A DNA stretch of 64,000 nucleotides from NCBI GenBank assembly GCA_026708015.1, contig JAPOVT010000002.1, positions 1 to 64,000 on the forward strand, given 5' to 3'. Under the pieces are notes generated by a model. The model was not told the origin of the DNA and did not search any database. It worked only from the letters and a program-made list of their open reading frames with translations. Positions 506-11,063 of this stretch are shown here, piece by piece. The position numbers and the translations under genes were made by a program. The number at the start of each line of letters is the position of its first letter. Within the stretch, counting starts at the first letter, position 1. The stretch is from a bacterium. Lineage in GTDB: Bacteria > Actinomycetota > Acidimicrobiia > Acidimicrobiales > Bin134.

Positions 506-3088
506 CTAGGAGCCCGGCAGGGGCTGTCCGGTGCCGTTGGAACCCGTCTGGGTGGGCTGCGTTGAGGGCTCGGCGCAGGCGTCGTCGTCCAGGTCTTCGG
601 CTTCGTCGCCGGGGAAGACCCGATTGGCCAGCTCCCTACAGGCCGCGGCAAGGGCGTTTCTGAACTGGGCTCCGCTGGCGAATGCTGCCAGGGCGGTTTG
701 GCGGGCCACGGCCTCACGGCGGGTGTAGGGCAGCACGCAGATGTCGGCTATGCCGTCACGAGGGGGAATGTCGTAGGGATAGGTAACGGCCCCGCCCAGG
801 CTGTGGTTGACGCAGAAGTCGGGGCCGGTGACCACCGGGCCAGAGAAGAAGTTTGGATAGGCCACCAGGTTGGCGGGGGGCGGCGGGGGCGAGACCTGCC
901 CGGTGGTGCAGACGTCGGCGTCGAGGGCGGCCTGGTTGTCGCCGAAGTCGTCGCCCGCGATCTCCCGGCAGGCGGTGCGAACCTCGCGGGCGAACTTGGT
1001 GGGATCCAGGTTGGCCAGCTGGGCTAGGGCGCTTTGGCGGGCCACGGCCTCTCGGCGGGTGTAGGGCAGCGAGCAGATGTCGGCTATGCCGTCGCGGTCT
1101 TGGTCTAGGGGATAGGTGACCGGGCCGCCCAGGCTGTGGTTCACGCAGAAGTTGGGGCCGGTGACCACGCCGGAGAAGTAGCGGCCCACCACAGTGATGG
1201 TCACTTCATCCTCATCGGTGCGGCCCTCTCGGTCGGTGACGGTGAGGGTGAAGGTGAGCCGCACGCTGGTGAGGTCGATGAGGTTGGGGGCTTGGAAGCG
1301 GGGGCGGGCGGTGCGGCTGGCGGTGAGCGGGTTGGGGTATACGCCGGCGGTGGGCCAGAAATCGCCGAGCGCTCTCAGGTCGGCGGCACTCACCGGGGTG
1401 ACCCGGGCCGGCGGGGTGACGGCGATGCTGGTGAGCGCCCAAGAGAAGGTGAACAGGTCGCCGGGATCGGGATCGAAGCTGGCGGTGCCGTCGAGCTCGA
1501 CGCGGGATCGGGTCTGCGCCCGCTGGTCGGCGCCGGCGTTGGCCACCGGATCCTCGTTGCGGCCCAGCACGGTGATGGTGACGGAGTCGGTGTCGAACAC
1601 GCCCCAGACGTCGGTGACGGTGAGATGGAGGATGATGTCGATCTGGCCACCCCGCAGCTCGGGGACCTCGAAGGAGACGATGGCCTGGTCGGGGTTGACG
1701 AGCTCCACGGTGGCCTCCTCCACCGGCTCGCCGTCGTCATCCACCTCGATCCACTGGAAGGTGATGGCGTCGCCGTCGTTGTCGAAGCCGGCGCCGTTTA
1801 CCCTCATGACGCCGGTTCCGTCGGTGCCGCCTTCTTTGCCGTCCTCGCTTATGAGGTCGTCGGGGGCTACCGCCGAGGGGGCGGCGTTGTCCACCACCAC
1901 GAAGGTGATGGTGGCGGTGGCGGTGCGGCGGGTGGAATCGGTGACGGTGACCGAGACGGTGTGGGTGGCGCCTACGGGACCGGTGCTGGGGGCGGTGAAG
2001 GTGGCCTGGGAGGTGGTGCCGGCCCGGTTGGAGGGGTTGGGGGTTATGTTGCCCCTCCACTGGTGGGTGAGGCTGCGGGCCTGGTTGCCGTCTTTGTCAT
2101 CGGCGGTGGCGGTGAGCACCACGCTGTCGCCGGGGGCGACCACGAAGCGGGGGTCTTCGCCTTCTTGAAAGGCGACCTGGGCCGGTTGGCTGCTGTCGCG
2201 CAGCTCGACTTCAACGGTGGGGGCGGCGGGCTGGTCGTGGACGGTGATCTGCACGGTGGCGAAGTCGGTGGCGCCGTCGTTGTTGGTGATGGTGACGCGA
2301 TAGTGGGCGACGGCGGTGCGGTTGTTGTCCAAGTTGTCGGGCAGCATGATGGTGACGGTCTCGCCGTACAGATCGCCGGGCTCGATGGTGAACGCCGGAT
2401 AGTTGGGGCGGGCGGTTACCTTGCGCCACTCGTAGCTGAGCACCGATGAGCCGGCCCCGGTGCTGTTAGAGGCGTCGAGCACTAGACGGGCGCCTTCTTG
2501 CACGTCCCACTCGTCGTCTTGGTTGCCGCGTTGGCCGGGGCGGTCGATCACCGCTTCGATGGTGTACTTCTCGTCGGTCTGAATGCGGCCGTCGCCGTCG
2601 AGGTCGGTGGGATTGGGGTTGAGCAGCTTGGCGGAGACGTCGATCCTGGCCTCGGGCTGCTGGCTGAGGGTGACCCGCACGATGTCGCGGTCGCTGTCGC
2701 CGTCTCGGTCGGTGACGGTGAGCTCGAAGTCGATGTGATAGGTGCCGTATTGGTTGACGAGGTTGACCGGAGGCACCTCGAACTCGGCGGTGCGGCCTGA
2801 GGGGCTGCCCGTGGGGGTGAGCCTGATCCATTTGTAGTCGCTTGTGACCACTCTCCATCGGTAGGTGAGGGTGTTGGGCAAGTCGTCGAAGTCGAAGCTG
2901 CCGCTTCCGTTGAGCCTGCCCTCGCGGTCGACTCCGGGGATGACCGAGAAGTCGTTGCCGGCGTCGGCCACGGGGGGCCGGTTCTGGGCCTGGGCCGAGG
3001 GGGTGAGGACGGTGACCAGGAGGGTGGCGGCCAGGATGGCGCTGAGGGCGCGCTTGGTGAAGGTGGGGCAAGTGGGGAAACGGGGCAT
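506..3088 (-). CDS. Secreted PKD-domain protein with duplicated C-terminal Cys module
   Basis: 860 residues. An N-terminal signal peptide (basic start, hydrophobic residues 14-30, likely cut after SAQA at residue 34) directs export. Residues 35 to about 640 form successive Ig-like beta-sandwich repeats of the PKD/cadherin type; the N-terminal (PPVADAGND) and fifth (DPVANAGADQ) units are clear PKD matches, each followed by a D/E-rich strand and a TVTDR-type end. Residues about 636-830 hold two copies of a Cys-containing module (see the repeat entries). The tail is short and polar with no LPxTG or membrane anchor, so it is probably released or held non-covalently. It is a stand-alone gene; binding to polysaccharide or other cells is a family-based inference. 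Confidence 0.8.
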   Translation of the reverse strand: MPRFPTCPTFTKRALSAILAATLLVTVLTPSAQAQNRPPVADAGNDFSVIPGVDREGRLNGSGSFDFDDLPNTLTYRWRVVTSDYKWIRLTPTGSPSGRTAEFEVPPVNLVNQYGTYHIDFELTVTDRDGDSDRDIVRVTLSQQPEARIDVSAKLLNPNPTDLDGDGRIQTDEKYTIEAVIDRPGQRGNQDDEWDVQEGARLVLDASNSTGAGSSVLSYEWRKVTARPNYPAFTIEPGDLYGETVTIMLPDNLDNNRTAVAHYRVTITNNDGATDFATVQITVHDQPAAPTVEVELRDSSQPAQVAFQEGEDPRFVVAPGDSVVLTATADDKDGNQARSLTHQWRGNITPNPSNRAGTTSQATFTAPSTGPVGATHTVSVTVTDSTRRTATATITFVVVDNAAPSAVAPDDLISEDGKEGGTDGTGVMRVNGAGFDNDGDAITFQWIEVDDDGEPVEEATVELVNPDQAIVSFEVPELRGGQIDIILHLTVTDVWGVFDTDSVTITVLGRNEDPVANAGADQRAQTRSRVELDGTASFDPDPGDLFTFSWALTSIAVTPPARVTPVSAADLRALGDFWPTAGVYPNPLTASRTARPRFQAPNLIDLTSVRLTFTLTVTDREGRTDEDEVTITVVGRYFSGVVTGPNFCVNHSLGGPVTYPLDQDRDGIADICSLPYTRREAVARQSALAQLANLDPTKFAREVRTACREIAGDDFGDNQAALDADVCTTGQVSPPPPPANLVAYPNFFSGPVVTGPDFCVNHSLGGAVTYPYDIPPRDGIADICVLPYTRREAVARQTALAAFASGAQFRNALAAACRELANRVFPGDEAEDLDDDACAEPSTQPTQTGSNGTGQPLPGS
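625..857 (-). repeat. C-terminal module copy B of the PKD protein
   Basis: Encodes the second copy of the module: TGPDFCVNHSLGG, a short acidic loop, DGIADIC, LPYTRREAVARQ, an Ala-rich helix and a final ACREL. The DxxxDGIADIC core resembles a calcium loop next to a Cys. It is closely similar to copy A at both DNA and protein level, which suggests an internal duplication. Confidence 0.75.
959..1182 (-). repeat. C-terminal module copy A of the PKD protein
   Basis: First copy of the same roughly 75-residue module: VVTGPNFCVNHSLGG, DQDRDGIADIC, LPYTRREAVARQ, ending ACREIAGDD. Cys spacing and the TRREAVARQ helix are conserved with copy B; the acidic loop is a fuller D-x-D-x-D-G calcium-type loop here. 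Confidence 0.75.
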
Positions 3089-3170: not shown

Positions 3171-3374
3171 TCAGCTGTTGGGTAGGGCGTCGCCGTGGGC
3201 CTCGCAGGAGGCGATGTAGTCCGCGGTCACGCCCTCGAGATTGAACAAGGCTTCTTCAGCAGTAGCACCCCAGGCCCGGCAACCCGGAAGTACCGGAACC
3301 TCGGCAAGGAACATGTCCTCAGTTTCTTCGGACGGTGCTCGCAAGGTGTAGGGCAGCTTGTACTGCTTGGCCAT
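3171..3374 (-). CDS. HicB-like antitoxin, orphan
   Basis: 67 residues from ATG 3374, chosen over the upstream in-frame start because GGAGAG lies 8 nt upstream. The sequence has the HicB/DUF1902 plan: a Tyr/Leu strand, FLAEVPVLPGCRAWGATAEEAL (the family's central strand-loop-helix), and a short tail. HicB proteins neutralise HicA mRNA interferases. No HicA-like reading frame is visible on either side, so this is an orphan antitoxin or a regulator of a distant toxin. It lies just beyond the outermost lhr 3'-end remnant, in a region full of toxin-antitoxin genes. Confidence 0.65.
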   Translation of the reverse strand: MAKQYKLPYTLRAPSEETEDMFLAEVPVLPGCRAWGATAEEALFNLEGVTADYIASCEAHGDALPNS

Positions 3375-3472: not shown

Positions 3473-3602
3473 TCAGGAGGAACCAGCTTCTTGGGGAGAG
3501 GAGGAGGCGGGCACGCCGTCGGGGTAGGGGAGGGTGTTGTTGGGGGTGGCGGGGGTTCTTGGGCCGTCGAAGAGTATTCCGGTGAGGTTGAGGGGGTCGC
3601 AG
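3473..3602 (-). repeat. Remnant of an lhr 3' end (outer copy)
   Basis: Read on the minus strand this segment encodes CDPLNLTGILFDGPRTP, then ATPNNTLPYPDGVP, a short Ser-rich tail and an in-frame TGA at 3473-3475. The real Lhr C-terminus reads CDPLNLTGFLFEGPRTP, ATPNNTLTYIDGVP. Similarity begins abruptly at the CDP codons (about 3602) and stops from the neighbouring gene precede it, so only the last ~30 shared codons remain. It is a diverged allele, not a recent copy: several changes are at third positions. It is not expressed as a gene of its own. Confidence 0.8.
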
Positions 3603-3618
3603 GGAGCCCGTCGGTGAG

Positions 3619-4293
3619 CTATTCGGACTCACCTGCCTCGGCTAGTGCTCTCCGGGCAACTTCGGGGTTGCGGCGGACTGCGGCGCTCAGTTGAAGGTCG
3701 AACCAGCGCTGGCGATGTTCTTTAACAGCCTCCTGCCATCCGTCATGCGGGATTGCGAGTTCCTCGATGATCATGGATTCGATGAGGTCCTCCAAGGTCG
3801 GGCGGAATCGCCTGCCTCCGGTGGGCCAATGAAAATCTGGTAGCCGGCGCTCCACTCCCATGGCATCGGCAAGTGGGTTCACAGGGCTCTCCGTCCCGTG
3901 GATGTGGACATGAGCTGCTGGATATGCCAATTCGTTTTTCGCGAGCACAGGTTCGCGGTTGTAGTCGTACCGGATAATTGGGTTTTGTAGGTCATCGGTC
4001 AGATGAAGCTCGACACGGCTGCTGGTGGTTGCGATGTGGACTCTCTCAGGGTCCAATTCAAGACGGTGGAGAATCACCAAGAAGCACTTGGGATCGGCCT
4101 GGCTGATCGTGACTGGGATGGGTTTCGTCGCGTGGGGCGCCTGCTTATTGATTTGAAAGCCGACCCAACCCTGTCTTCCACCGGGATACAGCACAGCTGT
4201 GATGGGGATGCCGTTGGTAATCGTTCGGTTCAGCAGGTCTTGAATTTGGTCGGCAAATTCCCGGGCCAGCCGGGCAAGATCAGCAGTTTTCAA
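3619..4293 (-). CDS. Unrecognised protein, second gene of a coupled pair
   Basis: 224 residues from TTG 4293, overlapping the preceding 69-residue gene by 14 nt, which implies translational coupling. I do not recognise the family. Visible features are an N-terminal amphipathic helix with LAREFADQIQDLL, a beta-rich middle (RQGWVGFQI, HIATTSSRVELHL), a His-rich stretch AHVHIHG near residue 128, and a helical C-terminal third ending in ARRALAEAGESE. The His-x-His-x-His element could bind metal, which is inference. The small-gene/large-gene overlap and its place between two lhr remnants, next to toxin-antitoxin genes, suggest an accessory or addiction-type module. It has no recognisable nuclease or kinase motif. 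Confidence 0.6.
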   Translation of the reverse strand: MKTADLARLAREFADQIQDLLNRTITNGIPITAVLYPGGRQGWVGFQINKQAPHATKPIPVTISQADPKCFLVILHRLELDPERVHIATTSSRVELHLTDDLQNPIIRYDYNREPVLAKNELAYPAAHVHIHGTESPVNPLADAMGVERRLPDFHWPTGGRRFRPTLEDLIESMIIEELAIPHDGWQEAVKEHRQRWFDLQLSAAVRRNPEVARRALAEAGESE

Positions 4294-4489
4294 TTTGCGG
4301 AGCGATCATGAACCAGGTGAGCCGAGCCTTGTGCGACGGAAAATCGTCGTCTCTTGCACAGGTCTCAAGCTCTTCGTAGCTCATCTGTAGCTCCGCAAGT
4401 GCCAAATCAGTCCCTTGCCGCAGGTCTTCCTCAGTTACAAAAACGACCGACTCGTCCCCAGGCGCGACCAGGTCTGTTGGAGTGCTCAT
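4280..4489 (-). CDS. Small unrecognised acidic protein, first gene of a coupled pair
   Basis: 69 residues from ATG 4489, with AGGAAGG upstream as ribosome binding site. The protein is acidic in its first half (VVFVTEEDLRQGTD) and ends in a helix with MSYEELETCARDDDFPSHKARLTWF. It overlaps the 224-residue gene downstream. The size, acidity and leading position are those of many antitoxins, but no DNA-binding motif is evident. The function is unknown. Confidence 0.6.
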   Translation of the reverse strand: MSTPTDLVAPGDESVVFVTEEDLRQGTDLALAELQMSYEELETCARDDDFPSHKARLTWFMIAPQIENC

Positions 4490-4579
4490 CTAACCTTCCT
4501 CCATCTTTGGGACATCTCAAGCATACCGGCCATTCTAAAGAGAGGTGGTGACAGATTCTCTGTCGACTTGTTGGTTGGT

Positions 4580-4643
4580 TCTAGCCAGAAGATCCGGGCA
4601 CGCCGTCGGTGTAGGGGAGGGTGTTGTTGGGGGTGGCGGGAGT
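4580..4643 (-). repeat. Remnant of an lhr 3' end (inner copy)
   Basis: On the minus strand this encodes TPATPNNTLPYTDGVPGSSG followed by an in-frame TAG at 4580-4582, matching the last ~17 codons of Lhr (TPATPNNTLTYIDGVP...). Its tail resembles the outer remnant (GVPxSS) more than the present gene. It separates the unknown gene pair from the Phd/RelE module. Confidence 0.75.
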
Positions 4644-4710
4644 GGGGCGCTCAGCCACCTAGTTGGAAGAGGGGGTGTGTTTTCGCAATCGGTGTGGCAC
4701 AATTGTGGTC

Positions 4711-4980
4711 ATGTCAAGCGAGTCGTTGCGCACAGTGCGAGATCGGTTCTCCGAGTTCATCGAACGGGTGAATACGCATCATGAACGGGTGGTAATCACC
4801 CGCAACGGCTCGCCAGCCGCGGTGCTTGTGAGTCCCGAGGATCTCGAGTCGCTTGAGGAGACCTTGGAGATACTGGGAGACGAAGAGGTGGTGGCGCAGC
4901 TTGCCGAAGCACACCGCGCTTATCTGGAGGGCGACGTTGTCCGCGGGGTTGAGGCCGTTAGGGCACTGCGCCCCTCGTGA
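4711..4980 (+). CDS. Phd/YefM-family antitoxin
   Basis: 89 residues from ATG 4711. The first 55 residues match Phd/YefM: SESLRTVRDRFSEFIERV, then RVVITRNGSPAAVLVSPEDLESLEETL, the DNA-binding dimer fold of this family. The rest is a helical toxin-binding tail. The stop overlaps the toxin start by 4 nt (GTGA). It should repress its own operon and block the RelE-type toxin. A short inverted element, GGCACAATTGTGG, lies just before the start and could be the operator; no Shine-Dalgarno is obvious. Confidence 0.85.
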   Translation: MSSESLRTVRDRFSEFIERVNTHHERVVITRNGSPAAVLVSPEDLESLEETLEILGDEEVVAQLAEAHRAYLEGDVVRGVEAVRALRPS

Positions 4981-5249
4981 GCGACTCTTCGTTTGAGCTG
5001 GTGGTGGCCCGGCCGGCGGCCAAGGCAATCGCCAACGAATTGCCCGAGTCGGTGGCCTCCGCCGTGATCGAGTTGATTACCGGGCCATTGCTGGAGAATC
5101 CCCGGCGAGTGGGCGTGGCGCTGAGGAACGAGCTTGAAGGGCTGTGGAGCGCCCGGCGGGGCACCTATCGAGTGCTATATCGGGTTGAAGAGACGAAACG
5201 AGAGATCGTGGTCTTGCGAGTGGGCCATCGTCGAGACGTGTACCGATAG
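4977..5249 (+). CDS. RelE/ParE-family toxin
   Basis: 90 residues from GTG 4977, overlapping the antitoxin stop. The core matches RelE/StbE mRNA interferases: an N-terminal strand and helix (FELVVARPAAKAIANELP), a loop with NPRRVGVALRNELEGLWSAR, then GTYRVLYRV and IVVLRVGHRRDVY. Arg in the GxYRVLY strand and the C-terminal HRRDVY are the conserved catalytic-face residues. It ends 30 bp from the lhr stop, tail to tail. Confidence 0.85.
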   Translation: MSDSSFELVVARPAAKAIANELPESVASAVIELITGPLLENPRRVGVALRNELEGLWSARRGTYRVLYRVEETKREIVVLRVGHRRDVYR

Positions 5250-5279
5250 AGCAGCTATCGCGACTCCTGGGGATCTCCC

Positions 5280-8200
5280 CTATTGGGGCGAAGGCACTCC
5301 ATCTATGTAGGTGAGGGTGTTGTTGGGGGTGGCGGGGGTTCTTGGGCCTTCGAAGAGGAATCCGGTGAGATTGAGGGGGTCGCAGGCGGCGATGGTTGTT
5401 TGCTGGCCGGTGAGGGGGTGGCGGCGGACCTTTTGGAGTTGGTCGGCGGCGGCGGGGAGGGCGAACTGCTCGCCGCTTTGGCCAGCTACGAAGCGGCCGC
5501 CTCTGACGATGCCGCGGTCTTCGAAGCGGCGCAGGGCCTTGAGGATGTCTCGCCACGGGGTTGCGGTGGGGGTGGCGGGGTGGTGGGCGAGGCTGCGGAA
5601 CACCACGCCCCAGCAGGCCAGCAGTTGCTGGGCGACGGCCTCGGCCAAGTCGTCGGCGGGGAGCTCTTCGGGTGGGGGAACCAGGGACCAGCGGCCGGGG
5701 GCGGCGTGGGTTTCGCGAGACGCGCCATTGTTAAAGGTGCGATTCATGCGCATGGCCCGAGTGCGAAGGGCTTGGGAGCGCAGGTTCTGGCCCGAGCGAT
5801 GGCGGGTAGGTCGACGGCTGCTGCGGTTGAGCAGGGCCCGCACCGCGGCGAAGCCGTCGGCGGTGAACAGGCCGAGGGCGACGCCGTTCCACAGGGCTCT
5901 TTCGATGTCGTCGGGCAGGCGGTGGGTGGCGCCGGCCAGATCGGGCAGGAAACTGGCGCCTTGGGACTGGAGGATGTCGGCGATTTCTTGGACGGGGCCG
6001 GCTTCGGGGGGCTCGGGGCTGTTGGTGCGGGCGGCGGCCAGGAGCCAATGGAGGTCTTCTCGGAACACGAGGGTGATGGGGGTGGCTTTGCGGGGAGCCA
6101 TTGAGTTGGCCTTGGCCGGCGTGTTGGGGGGCGTTAGGCGGAGCCAGGCCAGCTCGCCGCGGTAGCAGAGTTCGTCGAGCCACAGGGGGTCATAGTCGGG
6201 GAGTCGTTTGGCAATGATCTGCTTTTCCCAGGCGCCGGCGGGAAGGTCGAGGCCTTGGAGCTGCTCGAGGACTTTGGCGAGGCCGGGGCGGCCTCGGACT
6301 GTGCTGTCTGGAGTTAGGTGGTGGTAGTCGAGGAGGAAGCGCATGAAGTCTTGGGGGGAGGCGGCTTGTATAGAGGCGCGTTTTTGTCTTCGAGATAGAT
6401 AAGACATTCGTTGGAGGAGTCTTCGGGAGCACCATGTTTCTGTTCCCCCGGTGTGCCGGCGGGTCCTGTCACCGGAAGCGGCCTGGCCGTCGGAGCGGCC
6501 AGGTCCGCCACCGGCGCCACCCCCCGTCACACCTTCGGTGGGAGCACCCCCCTTTTTTGTTGGAGAGGGGAGGTGGTCAGCGCGCATTGCCACCCCTTCG
6601 GATTCGAGGGCGGCCAGTGCTTGATTGACCGTCGGAAGGTCTAGGGCTGTTTTGTCTGCAAGTTGTTCGGGGGTGGTGGGGCCGGTGGCTTCTAGGTGGC
6701 CTCGGATGGTTTCGGTGGCTTTTTCGGGGGTTAGGGCGGTTTCGGCAAGTTCGGTGGTGGTCCAGAGGGGGTTTTCGTCTTGGTTCTTTAAGGTGCAGAC
6801 CCGGTTTTTGGATTTCAGGGCTTCGTAGAGCTCTTGCCAGGTGGGGTTGGGGCGGGTGACTACTTGGGTGGTCAGCAGGTCGTGGAGCTCATCGGGGGTT
6901 CTGGGGTCGGGGGTTATCTCCTCGACTACTTGGGCGATGGCATCGGGGGCGATTTGAGAGAGGGTTGAGGCATCCAGGGTGGGGGGCTGTTGGTCGCTTC
7001 GGGGGCGCAGGCCTCGGGGGACGGTGACGGCGTTGGTGCGGCGGTCGACGATCTCGGCGTCGTCCAAAAAGGCGTAGGGGCGGGCGTTGACTATTTCGTG
7101 GCTGAGGGGGGAGGGCTCGGCGGTGTCGCAGAAGTGGGTGCGGACCGCGCCGGAGCGGATGTCGGTGAGGAGTTTCTTGAGGCCGTCAACGTCGAGGGCC
7201 TCATGGAGGGTGTCGTAGAGGGTTTGGCGCACCAGCAGGTGATCGGGGATCTCGATGGGGCCGGCCACGTTCTCCTGGCAGGCCGCCGCACCGGGGAACA
7301 CGGCGGCCATGATGTCGTCGGCCTCCATGCGCTGGATGGGGGGCGGGTTGCGCTTTCCGCCCCGGCTGCGCAGCACCACCAGGGCCCGGTTGAGGTTCCA
7401 CCGCCAGCGGGCGGCGAACATGGGCGAATCCAGCACGGCCTGGGTCAGCACCTCCTCCACCGAGTCAGGGTGCAGGAACTGGGGGACGTCGCTGAGGGGG
7501 AAGCTGTGGTGGGGGCCGAGCGACAAGATGATGGCGTTGTCGTTGGCCGCCGCCTGAAGCTCGAAGTCGAAGCGGCGGCAGAGGCGCTTGCGCAGCGCCA
7601 GCCCGAAAGCTCGATTGATGCGCCCCCCGTAGGGGCTGTGGACCACGAGCTGCTGGCCGCCGGTGTCGTCGAAGAAGCGCTCGAACACGATGTTTGTGTG
7701 GGTGGGGACGGTGCCTAGGGCGGCTTGGGCCGCGGCGATGTAGGCCACGGCCTGCTCGGCGATCTCGTTTGTCGTGTCGTGGGCTTGGGCGAATTGGGCG
7801 GCGGCTTCCAGGGCGCCAGCTTCGAAGGCTTCAGTGTCGAGGGGGTCGGCGTTCGGGGCTTGCGAGAGGAGGCTGTATATATAGGCGCGCAGATCGGACA
7901 CCTGCTGGGACAGCTCGGCGGTGCGGGCGGGGGCCTCGCCCAGCCAGAAGGGGACGGTGGGCGGGGCGTCGCCGGCGTCGATCACCCGCACGGTGCCGGC
8001 GGCCACCTGCTTGATGCGCCAGGAGTGGGAGCCCAACAAGAAGATGTCGCCGGCCATCGACTCCACCGCCCAGTCTTCGTTGACCGTGCCGATGAAGGTG
8101 TCGTCGGGCTCGGCCACCACCCGGTAGTCGCCGTTCTCGCCGATGGCGCCCCCGGAGGTGAGAGCGGCCAGCCGGGCCCCCCGTTTGCCCCGCACCTCCT

Positions 8201-9722
8201 GGTTGATGGAGTCGTGGTGGAGGTAGGCGCCCCGGGGGCCTCGGCCGGTGACCACTCCTTTGGCGGCCTGCTCAATGGCCTCGTCGAACTGGTCTTTGGT
8301 GAGGCTGGCGTAGGGGGCGGCCTTGGTGAACATGTCGTAGAGGCCGCCGGTGGTGTGGTTGTCGTCGGCGGCGGCCTCGGCGATGAGCTGCTGCACCAGG
8401 ATGTCGAGGGGGGCTTCAGGGGGGCGAACGGCGTCGAGCTGGCCCTGGTTCACGGCGTGGATGAGGGCGAGGCACTCGATGAGCTCGTCGCGGGTGAGGG
8501 GCCACAGGCGGCCCTTGGGGGTGCCGTGGCGGCTGTGGTTGGAGCGGCCCACCCGCTGGAGGAAGGTGGCGATGCTGCGAGGGGAGCCCACCTGGCATAC
8601 CAGCTCCACGGGGCCGATGTCGATGCCCAGCTCCAGAGACGCGGTGGCCACCAGGGCTTTTAGGTCGCCAGCCCGGAGGCGGTGCTCGGTACGGATGCGA
8701 CGCTCGGTTGACAGGGAGCCGTGGTGGGCGGCCACCGCGTCTTCGCCCAGGCGCTCGGCCAGCTGGTGGGCGATGCGCTCGGACATGCGGCGGGTGTTGA
8801 CGAACACGATGGTGGTGTGGTGCTCGCCGACGAGGGTGGCCATGCGGTCGAGGATCTGGTCCATCTGGGCATGGGAGACCACGGCGTCGAGCTCGTCGTC
8901 GATCAGCTCCAAGGCGATGTCGAGGTTTCGCTGATGGCCGGTGTCGACGATGGTGCACTGGGTGGCGGGTTCGGCGGCGCCAGACTCGGTGGAGCCGGCG
9001 CCGTTGTCGGACCGGTTGGCGGGGACGCCGGTGAGCAGGTCGGCGATGGTGGCGATGGGGTGCTGGGTGGCCGACAGGCCGATTCGGGTGGGGCGGACGT
9101 CGGCGGCGTGCTCAAGGCGCTCGAGGGTGAGGGCCAGGTGGCTGCCCCGCTTGTCTCGGGCGGTGGCGTGGATCTCGTCGACGATCACCGTCTCCACGGT
9201 GCGCAGCACCTCACGGCTCTTGGCCGCGGTCACCAGCAGGTAGAGCGACTCGGGGGTGGTGACCACGAAGTTGGCCGGCTTTTTGATCATGGCGGCCCGG
9301 GTGTGGGCCGGGGTGTCGCCGGTGCGCACCGCCACCGTAAGCGGCGGGGGCTCATGGCCTTGTTCCCGGGCGATCTCGGCGATCTCTGCTAAGGGGCGCT
9401 CCAGGTTCTCGGCGATGTCGGTGGCCAGCGCCTTGAGCGGCGACACGTACACCACCTGGCTGGTCTTGGCCACCGTTTGGCCTTGGGCGTGGCGCTTGTA
9501 GAGGTTGTCGATGGCGATGAGGAACCCGGCCAGGGTCTTGCCCGACCCGGTGGGCGCGGCGATCAGCGTGTCTTGGCCCGAGGCGATGGCCAGCCACCCC
9601 TGGGCCTGGGCCTCCGTCGGCCCGTCCGGAAACCGCTGCTCAAACCATGCCGCCACCGCGGGGTGAAACTCAAAGCCGACGTCGGCCAACACACCGGCCT
9701 CGGCGTGGATCGGGGAAGCCAC
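5280..9722 (-). CDS. lhr: Lhr-type ATP-dependent helicase
   Basis: 1480 residues, close to the ~1500 of actinobacterial Lhr. The N-terminal superfamily 2 core carries Walker A APTGSGKTLAGF (residues ~54-65), the DEIH box, SATQHP (motif III) and QRVGRSNH (motif VI). A winged-helix and the long Lhr C-terminal region follow, including WCSRRLL and DFMRFLL. Lhr is a 3'-5' translocase acting in DNA repair. Between about residues 1044 and 1090 there is a Gly-rich insertion (see its entry). The downstream side has accumulated cassettes separated by remnants of lhr 3' ends, so the last codons of this copy may have come in with the newest cassette. The start is ATG 9722; no upstream in-frame alternative looks better. 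Confidence 0.93.
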   Translation of the reverse strand: MASPIHAEAGVLADVGFEFHPAVAAWFEQRFPDGPTEAQAQGWLAIASGQDTLIAAPTGSGKTLAGFLIAIDNLYKRHAQGQTVAKTSQVVYVSPLKALATDIAENLERPLAEIAEIAREQGHEPPPLTVAVRTGDTPAHTRAAMIKKPANFVVTTPESLYLLVTAAKSREVLRTVETVIVDEIHATARDKRGSHLALTLERLEHAADVRPTRIGLSATQHPIATIADLLTGVPANRSDNGAGSTESGAAEPATQCTIVDTGHQRNLDIALELIDDELDAVVSHAQMDQILDRMATLVGEHHTTIVFVNTRRMSERIAHQLAERLGEDAVAAHHGSLSTERRIRTEHRLRAGDLKALVATASLELGIDIGPVELVCQVGSPRSIATFLQRVGRSNHSRHGTPKGRLWPLTRDELIECLALIHAVNQGQLDAVRPPEAPLDILVQQLIAEAAADDNHTTGGLYDMFTKAAPYASLTKDQFDEAIEQAAKGVVTGRGPRGAYLHHDSINQEVRGKRGARLAALTSGGAIGENGDYRVVAEPDDTFIGTVNEDWAVESMAGDIFLLGSHSWRIKQVAAGTVRVIDAGDAPPTVPFWLGEAPARTAELSQQVSDLRAYIYSLLSQAPNADPLDTEAFEAGALEAAAQFAQAHDTTNEIAEQAVAYIAAAQAALGTVPTHTNIVFERFFDDTGGQQLVVHSPYGGRINRAFGLALRKRLCRRFDFELQAAANDNAIILSLGPHHSFPLSDVPQFLHPDSVEEVLTQAVLDSPMFAARWRWNLNRALVVLRSRGGKRNPPPIQRMEADDIMAAVFPGAAACQENVAGPIEIPDHLLVRQTLYDTLHEALDVDGLKKLLTDIRSGAVRTHFCDTAEPSPLSHEIVNARPYAFLDDAEIVDRRTNAVTVPRGLRPRSDQQPPTLDASTLSQIAPDAIAQVVEEITPDPRTPDELHDLLTTQVVTRPNPTWQELYEALKSKNRVCTLKNQDENPLWTTTELAETALTPEKATETIRGHLEATGPTTPEQLADKTALDLPTVNQALAALESEGVAMRADHLPSPTKKGGAPTEGVTGGGAGGGPGRSDGQAASGDRTRRHTGGTETWCSRRLLQRMSYLSRRQKRASIQAASPQDFMRFLLDYHHLTPDSTVRGRPGLAKVLEQLQGLDLPAGAWEKQIIAKRLPDYDPLWLDELCYRGELAWLRLTPPNTPAKANSMAPRKATPITLVFREDLHWLLAAARTNSPEPPEAGPVQEIADILQSQGASFLPDLAGATHRLPDDIERALWNGVALGLFTADGFAAVRALLNRSSRRPTRHRSGQNLRSQALRTRAMRMNRTFNNGASRETHAAPGRWSLVPPPEELPADDLAEAVAQQLLACWGVVFRSLAHHPATPTATPWRDILKALRRFEDRGIVRGGRFVAGQSGEQFALPAAADQLQKVRRHPLTGQQTTIAACDPLNLTGFLFEGPRTPATPNNTLTYIDGVPSPQ
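6452..6590 (-). other. In-frame Gly-rich insertion within lhr
   Basis: Encodes PTKKGGAPTEGVTGGGAGGG and following Arg/Gly-rich residues ahead of ETWCSRRLL. From memory of the family only about 10 residues join these conserved blocks. The DNA contains a perfect 8-bp inverted repeat, CCTGGCCG (6482-6489) and CGGCCAGG (6496-6503), with a 6-nt loop, and an AAAAAAGGGGGGTG tract. Confidence 0.5.
7876..7890 (+). repeat. TATATATAGGCGCGC 15-mer within lhr
   Basis: Identical to 3116-3130. On the coding strand it falls in the codons for RAYIY of Lhr, so it is tolerated in frame. Confidence 0.5.
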
Positions 9723-9771: not shown

Positions 9772-10281
9772 TTACCACCATTGGTCGAAGTGGCGGAGTG
9801 ATGTTTGGGCAGGTTGAGAATTGCGGGGGAACCAAGCCATCTCGCGGGTGCCGCCGGGGGTGGCTGAGCGGTAGTCGATGCCGTCGAGGTTGGCGTCGAA
9901 GGCGGCTTGGCCAATTTGTTGGCAGATCGCGTGGGAGATGACGGCTCCGTTGGCATCGTGGGGGTAGGTGGCGGGCAGGCCTAGGGCGGCGAGCCCGTGG
10001 GAGGTGTGGGCATCGGCGGCTTGTCCCGAGGGGACATTCACCTCGACAAGTTGAGGTGCAGTGGCCGGGTCAAGGGATTCAGGGCTGAAGGGCAAACCTT
10101 CGAATTGTCGGCGAACGTTGGCCCGGGCAGTGTCTACATCGTGGTTCAAATAGAGGCAGGAAAGACCCGGCGGGTTCCATCGCCGTCCAGGGGGACGTGA
10201 CGAGAATGATGGGTCGAGCGGGTCGGCCCATTCTGGGTCGGCGACGCGGAAATATTGGCCACCTATTGGAGTGATTTGCAC
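9772..10281 (-). CDS. RES-domain toxin
   Basis: 169 residues from GTG 10281, which places the start 2 nt after the xre stop; the longer frame from 10335 would overlap xre by 50 nt. RES toxins degrade NAD+. Visible family blocks are GGQYFRVADPEW, PGRRWNPPGLSCLYLNHD with TARANVRRQ (the Arg/Tyr active-site region), and the C-terminal DGIDYRSATPGG. It forms a type II module with the Xre-like gene immediately upstream, which should bind and cap the active site. Confidence 0.85.
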   Translation of the reverse strand: MQITPIGGQYFRVADPEWADPLDPSFSSRPPGRRWNPPGLSCLYLNHDVDTARANVRRQFEGLPFSPESLDPATAPQLVEVNVPSGQAADAHTSHGLAALGLPATYPHDANGAVISHAICQQIGQAAFDANLDGIDYRSATPGGTREMAWFPRNSQPAQTSLRHFDQWW

Positions 10282-10283
10282 GG

Positions 10284-11063
10284 TCAGGCGACCCGGCTGA
10301 AGTCGAAGCTGTCTTTGGTGGATTGCAGCAGCCATTCGTGCTCGTCGTTGGCGATCAAATCGAGCATGGTGCGCCCTTCGTAGGCTTCGGCTGGCCGTCG
10401 CACAACTTCTTCGGGCAGGCCGGGGAGAAGGCGGTACCGAAGGATGTCGGCGAGTTCGGCGATTGCGCCGATCTTGGGGGCTCGATCAGCGGGAGGACCA
10501 GCGAGCAGCCACTTGTCGACCGCCTGGCGGCTGACTCCCATGAGGTGGCCGACGTCGCTCTTCGACAGATTGAGGATTTCCATAGTCCGCCGCAATGGCT
10601 CGCCGCCCTCTTGGTCCTGTTGCGCTTGGGCTAGGGCCTTGCAGAAGCGAGAGAAGAAATACTCGTCGATATCGTCGCGGGGCCGCACGCACTCCTGTCG
10701 CAGCCCTCCAGCGAGACCCCTCAACTTGTCGACCAGCGCAGTGGCCACACCGAGCCCGTCGTCTGATGGGATTGTCCACGGCAGCGTGTCTGTGGTTTTC
10801 CGAAGCTGCTCATACAGGAAAAAGAGAGGGGGATGAGCATCGGGCCGACGTGCCTGAAGGTTGGCCAGCCATTGCGCAGCCATGTCGATGTAGGAGTCGA
10901 AGCGTCGAACCGTGGCCAAGTCGTGCGAGCTCTGGACCCGGGGAACGAGTTGATCGAGTGCGGCGACGATGTCGGGTATCTCCTGGGCAGCTCTTTTTGA
11001 TGCGGTGGAGAGATCCGCTTCCAGCAGATCTTCGAGGTAGAGCACATCGCCAGCGTATCGCAA
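10284..11063 (-). CDS. Xre/MbcA/ParS-type antitoxin with long N-terminal extension
   Basis: 259 residues from TTG 11063 (a GTG at 11045 is an alternative). Residues ~160-200 hold a helix-turn-helix (LSKSDVGHLMGVSRQAVDKWL). The C-terminus has the ParS/MbcA toxin-binding end, with AYEGRTMLDLIANDEHEWLL and a final FDFSRVA. Most antitoxins of this type are about 120-160 residues; here about 150 additional helical residues precede the HTH and match nothing I recognise. It partners the RES toxin and probably represses the operon through the inverted repeat at 11060-11094. Confidence 0.8.
   Translation of the reverse strand: MRYAGDVLYLEDLLEADLSTASKRAAQEIPDIVAALDQLVPRVQSSHDLATVRRFDSYIDMAAQWLANLQARRPDAHPPLFFLYEQLRKTTDTLPWTIPSDDGLGVATALVDKLRGLAGGLRQECVRPRDDIDEYFFSRFCKALAQAQQDQEGGEPLRRTMEILNLSKSDVGHLMGVSRQAVDKWLLAGPPADRAPKIGAIAELADILRYRLLPGLPEEVVRRPAEAYEGRTMLDLIANDEHEWLLQSTKDSFDFSRVA

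Follow-up and report, generated by a model that had tools for sequence, protein, structure and literature searches.

Integron arrays consist of small cassettes, often toxin-antitoxin modules, each with a repeat of ~60 nucleotides (nt), and their cassette order is permuted. For the effector-immunity arrays of type VI secretion systems (T6SS), a model describes how the old 3′ end of the effector gene is shifted back (PMC5361080). Restriction-modification genes, in the summary of Nobusato (2000) that PMC3031569 gives, can insert with a long and variable duplication of the target. Other described hotspots lack an integrase and depend on recombination in the core genes that flank them (Oliveira 2017, PMC5635113). 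Here, we compare with these systems the 3′ end of lhr, the gene for a large helicase (Lhr), in a stretch of 64,000 nt (the window; bases 1–64000 of contig C2, 76,044 bases) from a 3.5 Mb draft genome, G000. The host belongs to an actinobacterial genus that is probably sponge-associated, and the relatives in the comparison include Acidimicrobiia bacterium, uncultured Acidimicrobiales bacterium and Candidatus Poriferisocius. Most likely, small toxin-antitoxin and defence cassettes have repeatedly entered at the lhr 3′ end, by ordinary recombination and without an integrase.

On the minus strand of the window, lhr occupies 5280–9722 (an open reading frame of 1480 aa; ATP-dependent helicase models PRK13767/PRK09751, E ~1e-173). 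Two displaced copies of its 3′ end stand behind it, where the original prediction had placed them to within a few bases. Remnant 2 (R2; 4581–4650, minus strand) combines the lhr 3′ end from 4650 (start approximate) to 4596 with an old tail at 4595–4581 that ends in a TAG stop, and remnant 1 (R1; 3473–3602, minus strand) combines the lhr 3′ end at 3602–3509 with an old tail at 3508–3473 and a TGA stop. Both translations fit the Lhr C-terminus (...DPLNLTGILFDGPRTPATPNNTLPYPDGVP for R1, ...RPTPATPNNTLPYTDGVP for R2), both stops are clean, and both tails are unlike that of the present lhr 3′ end (5280–5386, minus strand), which is homologous to the remnants as far as 5293 and then runs into a cassette-derived tail and stop. 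When the window was compared with itself, 3510–3603 matched 5293–5386 (89% over 94 nt, E 6e-29), 4597–4643 matched 5293–5339 (87% over 47 nt, E 7e-9), and R1 matched R2 at 3508–3556 and 4595–4643 (96% over 49 nt, E 2e-15). With a relative's 100-nt lhr end as query, the whole 3.5 Mb genome returned only three matches at E <= 0.01, namely the present end, R1 and R2. Therefore, the similarity is specific to lhr, as had been claimed, and lies far above chance; chance similarity or a widespread repeat is ruled out by these lhr-specific matches. Relative to the genus consensus, R1 carries six non-synonymous and four synonymous codon changes and R2 four and one, a pattern that, as judged from the sequence, would be as expected of non-coding relics. 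In most present lhr ends, the changes are mainly synonymous.

The displaced ends separate small cassettes. Between the present lhr end and R2 lie genes for a Phd/YefM antitoxin (4711–4980, plus strand; PhdYeFM_antitox in Pfam, E 2e-18) and a RelE/ParE-family toxin (4977–5249, plus strand; ParE_toxin in Pfam, E 3e-10). Between R2 and R1 lies cassette B, composed of a small gene for 69 aa (4280–4489, minus strand) and a large gene for 224 aa (3619–4293, minus strand). Past R1 follows a hicB-like antitoxin gene without hicA (3171–3374, minus strand; weak UPF0150/HicB match). This cargo is the one that had been predicted, with family matches for the toxin, for Phd and, weakly, for HicB; the cassette B pair matched no family in Pfam, NCBIfam or PADLOC.

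A third lhr tail is hidden in the end of hicB (3171–3191, minus strand), where the gene is fused to an old lhr core, tail and stop. The lhr core reads ACCGACGGCCTCCCC. In the closest relative, L048, whose lhr is 94–95% identical to that of the window, no cassette is present, and ...ACCGACGGCCTCCCC-AACAACTGA-gccaaagcccgcccggcaacagcag... leads into a PKD-protein gene. The counterpart of this downstream sequence in the window begins inside the hicB end (...GGCGACGCCCTACCC-AACAGCTGA-gccaaagtccgtccggcaacagcag), so that the hicB terminus at 3191–3171 is GACGCCCTACCC-AACAGCTGA where the empty site of L048 is GACGGCCTCCCC-AACAACTGA. The sequence that follows the third tail is found both after the L048 empty site and after a remnant in G017. 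An intact hicB in G005 runs on as ...GACGCCCTACCCGCTGCCATC... and is followed by hicA (HicA, E 2e-18), an lhr remnant and the PKD gene. Therefore, the hicB end and hicA of the window were lost through a joint between GACGCCCTACCC of hicB and GACGGCCTCCCC of an lhr end, which offers an explanation for an orphan antitoxin: its partner was removed by recombination at an lhr-like motif. The 12-mer at this joint is the top match to the lhr core within the 443-nt hicB-hicA region, with 10 of 12 bases (the next has 8), and the codons D-A-L-P at 3180–3194 resemble the lhr codons D-G-L-P. The hicB of G003 is truncated at this motif too, with the MNT cassette next to it. That both joints fall on this motif supports recombination at lhr-derived homologies. 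The original prediction had counted two successive insertion events. Their repetition stands, but two are too few, because the third tail within hicB requires at least three. Further hicB copies were seen in relatives. The hicB of G017 (L108, G017:C3, ~410–430) has an in-frame stop after ATGGCCAAGCAG and is an inactivated or restarted copy; a second hicB with a cut hicA lies in G010 between two copies of a small coiled-coil gene (L160, C41 29985–30249); and a hicB fragment in G001:C33 stands behind a related coiled-coil gene, which together with the G010 copy may mark another docking place.

Across the genus, the site behind lhr is variously empty or occupied. The PKD gene stands directly behind lhr in L048, G002, G014 and G015. 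In G006 and G007, the convergent dnaB gene is found ~60 bases directly behind lhr, and dnaB also stands behind the lhr end in G008. The relE/phd unit is the sole cassette in G012 and G019, with a tail that differs from that of the window. Other genomes hold arrays: hicB-hicA, a remnant and the PKD gene in G005; an MNT-HEPN toxin-antitoxin pair, a remnant, a truncated Xre gene and the end of a RES gene in G010; cassette B, a core motif, an Xre fragment, a gene for an AAA ATPase with a DUF3226 gene (PDC-M38A/B in PADLOC), a further Xre gene and a remnant in G013; and relE/phd, a remnant, hicB with a cut hicA, Xre-RES, a 30-nt remnant and an L048-type flank in G017. In G003, Xre-RES stands behind lhr on one contig, and hicB, MNT, a remnant, relE/phd and the PKD gene follow each other on another. 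Thus, lhr remnants occur in six genomes (G000, G003, G005, G010, G013 and G017) and differ in presence, number and position, which rules out that they are fixed in all relatives. The insertion behind lhr that leaves old 3′ ends past the cargo, which had been proposed for the window, is seen in relatives, some of which have an empty site or different cargo at this stop codon. Each cassette of the window immediately follows lhr in at least one other genome: relE/phd in G012 and G019, cassette B in G013 with the window's tail, and hicB in G021 (its beginning only, with the window's tail) and in G005 (with another tail). The R1 tail recurs immediately after lhr in G021 and after a remnant in G017, where the joint of R2 with phd also recurs. 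Cargo and tail are common to species for cassette B, hicB, MNT and the relE/phd of G012, G019 and G003; therefore, the Lhr tail and stop codon arrive with the cargo. In G010 and G013, Xre antitoxin genes have an N-terminus swapped for the first codons of the MNT nucleotidyltransferase (MSRRDEV..HREAIRA; G010:C41 17690–17800 and G013:C6 near 44200), and these MNT-headed genes are a product of cassette shuffling. The sequence of L048 (VXOZ01000335.1) is labelled Chloroflexi bacterium despite the 94–95% lhr identity and is probably a mislabelled member of the genus. Along lhr, examined for a crossover tract, G000 and L048 are 90–96% identical in all segments compared, and 88% only in the last 57 nt.

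Are the remnants copies of the resident gene? They offer only 42–102 usable nt, and best-match identities together with a tree of the lhr body were used in place of separate trees of the 3′ ends. Wherever this was measured, in five genomes, the remnant is nearer to another species' lhr end than to that of its own genome (98 vs 90% in G005, 97 vs 87% in G013, 96 vs 91% in G010 and 98 vs 95% in G003; in G000, 89 vs 84% for R1 and 87 vs 78% for R2). Therefore, simple local duplication does not explain one of the two copies, although 50–100 nt are too short to tell which copy is the foreign one. Accordingly, the proposal that a foreign lhr 3′ end was brought in holds for one of the copies, which may or may not be the present end. 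A tandem duplication of the genome's own lhr end is not favoured for the same reason. A related possibility, put forward for restriction-modification genes, is that the cargo enters on its own and the resident target is duplicated by the cell. Selfish cargo between long and variable direct repeats of the target (15–117 nt) would suit this idea, and so would the two lhr-end copies of G010, which have ~130 nt past the stop in common. However, in none of the five genomes are the copies direct repeats of one resident sequence, and the new tails are cassette-specific and common to species, so the cargo brought in DNA to either side of the core. We consider such a target duplication improbable.

That the order of the cassettes records their age is not supported. 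The relE/phd unit stands before hicB in G000 and G017 but after it in G003. Xre/RES, in turn, stands before hicB in G003 but after it in G017. Cassette B, which lies between relE/phd and hicB in G000, is absent there in G017. These orders in G003 and G017 do not support strict nesting. The view that the outermost cassette is the oldest is thus not established, given the permuted orders and the losses by recombination between lhr-derived repeats. G000 and G017 have the same phd-remnant joint, with 99% identity on the phd side, followed by cassette B in G000 and by hicB in G017. Therefore, either B entered at the remnant or it was lost by recombination between remnants. The stack nevertheless fits repeated addition at lhr.

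Permuted order is also what an integron-like system would produce, in which cassettes bear an attachment site resembling the lhr 3′ end and an unlinked recombinase exchanges strands at the core ACCGACGGCCTCCCC. Joints do recur at this core, even within hicB. A bare core of 15 nt follows the cassette B stop in two genomes, as CTCACCGACGGGCTCCC in the window (3602–3618, minus strand) and as TTCAACGACGGCCTCCCC at the same position in G013, with fewer than 0.2 such motifs expected by chance per array after shuffling. The remnant starts are mildly clustered, and tyrosine recombinases are encoded elsewhere in every genome. However, the remnants range from 15 to 100 nt in length, with eight starts lying 15 to 97 nt before the core end, and repeat length is not constant at a given site; the tails after the core vary; dnaB behaves in the same way with an unrelated sequence; and a crossover at the core would also be left by selection for an intact Lhr. 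No integrase is found in or beside the lhr-side arrays, in which the tyrosine integrase family (PF00589) has no match, in line with the earlier expectation of docking without an integrase; serine recombinases (PF00239) are almost absent from the genus. No attC hallmark was noticed in the lhr remnants, whose folding was not computed. A site-specific exchange of this kind is thus a tentative explanation that we regard as unlikely. Still doubtful is the particular form in which recombinase-dependent cassettes lack a linked integrase, use the lhr core as attachment site and carry mimics of it in toxin-antitoxin cassettes; if true, lhr-core cassettes could be gained, excised and rearranged in the manner of integron cassettes.

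The behaviour of lhr is repeated at the other border of the island. Convergent dnaB lies 18.7 kb from lhr in G010, and ~15, ~6, ~25 and ~2 kb from it in G013, G014, G015 and G021, respectively; therefore, the PKD gene that follows the cassettes (in the window at 506–3088, minus strand; K319L-like_PKD, E 6e-31) is island DNA and not the old border. Displaced dnaB 3′ ends, all ending at the dnaB stop, were found in G005 (77 and 111 nt; L198, G005:C219, 13119–13195 and 14075–14188) and in G003 (117 nt; L199, G003:C33, 3786–3902). The DNA between dnaB and the G003 remnant, on a contig that begins with an overlap of the dnaB contig, carries the genes of a known defence system, the pair IetA and IetS (E 5e-75 and 8e-90). 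The copies in G005 are unexpectedly oriented like lhr, for which we have no explanation without an inversion. Thus, lhr is a docking site as had been suggested, but an account that names lhr alone is incomplete. Within the window, the repeats inspected for further displaced gene 3′ ends lie within or between paralogous genes, and outside the genus no dnaB was found near lhr within the lhr flanks examined, which mostly span 1.5 kb.

Integrases near dnaB raise a further possibility, namely that integrative elements once attached at the 3′ ends of lhr and dnaB and have decayed, leaving cargo and attachment (att) repeats. The 3′ ends of genes are classical attachment sites, and phages 21 and e14 use icd in this way. 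In G010, a P4-type tyrosine integrase (L160, C41 34074–35312) separates the PKD genes from dnaB at a distance of 190 nt from the dnaB stop, and PF00589 matches also occur in the dnaB-side contigs of G001, G002 and G019. Yet the dnaB of G010, which has this integrase beside it, lacks a remnant, and no lhr-side array contains an integrase match. In addition, the repeats are unequal in length, and the cassettes are small (0.5–1 kb) and numerous. Decayed elements are therefore given little credence here.

We consider homology-anchored, one-sided recombination behind lhr the best explanation, and a probable one. DNA of a relative, carrying an lhr 3′ end with its own tail and cargo, would pair with the resident lhr, which serves as the homology anchor. 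The other end would be joined illegitimately, often still inside the resident lhr 3′ end and upstream of the old stop; in G005, G010 and G013, the 5′ ends of the remnants lie a few nt past the stop of a cargo gene. The product would be a gene for full-length Lhr with a new tail, followed by the cargo and by the last 15–100 nt of an lhr end that keeps its former tail and stop. The resulting repeats may later provide short homologies for loss and reshuffling, for example in the loss of hicA and at empty sites, and the convergent border gene dnaB may be used likewise. We infer this route and its direction from the arrangement of the arrays, and favour it because the remnants vary in length, unlike a fixed att site, and because two unrelated genes have the pattern.

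Several observations weigh against this explanation or limit it. Of eight independent remnants, five start within 10 nt of each other (p ~0.015 with a uniform model chosen post hoc), a hint of a preferred point. The allele in R2 of G000 is not that of the sister L048; some remnants may thus move together with the cassette. The divergence of the cassettes (for example, cassette B is 87% identical between G000 and G013) is near that of lhr itself (87%); therefore, the events are old on this scale, and neither donor nor recipient can be named. The compared genomes include no recent insertion pair. All genomes are drafts or metagenome assemblies, in which several contigs break at the lhr-derived repeats. 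As for possible carriers, no IMG/VR contig contains an exact 29-mer taken from the lhr end; this search did not extend to phage and plasmid record collections.

The large protein of cassette B has homologues in 11 of the 247 genomes of the class in which they were counted, with two copies in G000 and invariant residues H128, H155, G159, G160 and R162; its AlphaFold model (predicted local distance difference test score 82.5) gave no PDB match at E <= 0.001. Directly upstream of lhr, the window contains a RES toxin gene with a likely Xre-type partner (9772–11063). This kind of module also occurs behind lhr in G003 and behind hicB in G017.

Most integrase-free hotspots give no clue to the way in which their cargo arrived. 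Here, a piece of a conserved gene stays behind after many events, and insertions, sites and losses can be read from the sequence. No report of lhr as an insertion hotspot came up in a literature search. New are the use of housekeeping-gene 3′ ends as sites, cargo that is mainly toxin-antitoxin and defence genes, and a countable record of events. These findings suggest a route by which addiction modules and defence genes pile up between two convergent core genes.

Compared with known systems, the lhr array resembles integron arrays in its small stacked cassettes and permuted order, but it has no integron integrase nearby and its repeats are lhr coding sequence of variable length. With the target duplications of restriction-modification genes, as far as the cited summary describes them, the lhr and dnaB sites have in common addictive cargo between long direct repeats of the target without a transposase; unlike there, protein-gene 3′ ends form the repeats, and simple self-duplication does not account for the two copies. 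Like the integrase-free hotspots, they hold variable cargo between fixed core genes, often without an integrase and with homologous exchange. Double recombination replaces cargo in those hotspots, whereas the lhr site adds cargo and leaves countable gene-end remnants. The T6SS/Rhs arrays likewise combine a homology anchor in the conserved part of a gene with an illegitimate far joint and no integrase, push the old 3′ end and old downstream genes back, and grow by repetition. As in such displacement arrays, a displaced 3′ end of the anchor gene lies past the module (for lhr in six genomes and for dnaB in two), and relatives have anchor-proximal modules and empty sites. In T6SS/Rhs arrays, however, the displaced 3′ end encodes the toxin and is part of the payload. 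At lhr and dnaB, the anchor is a housekeeping gene, its protein is kept intact and the payload is an independent toxin-antitoxin or defence module, which extends the displacement mechanism of toxin-tip loci to housekeeping genes.

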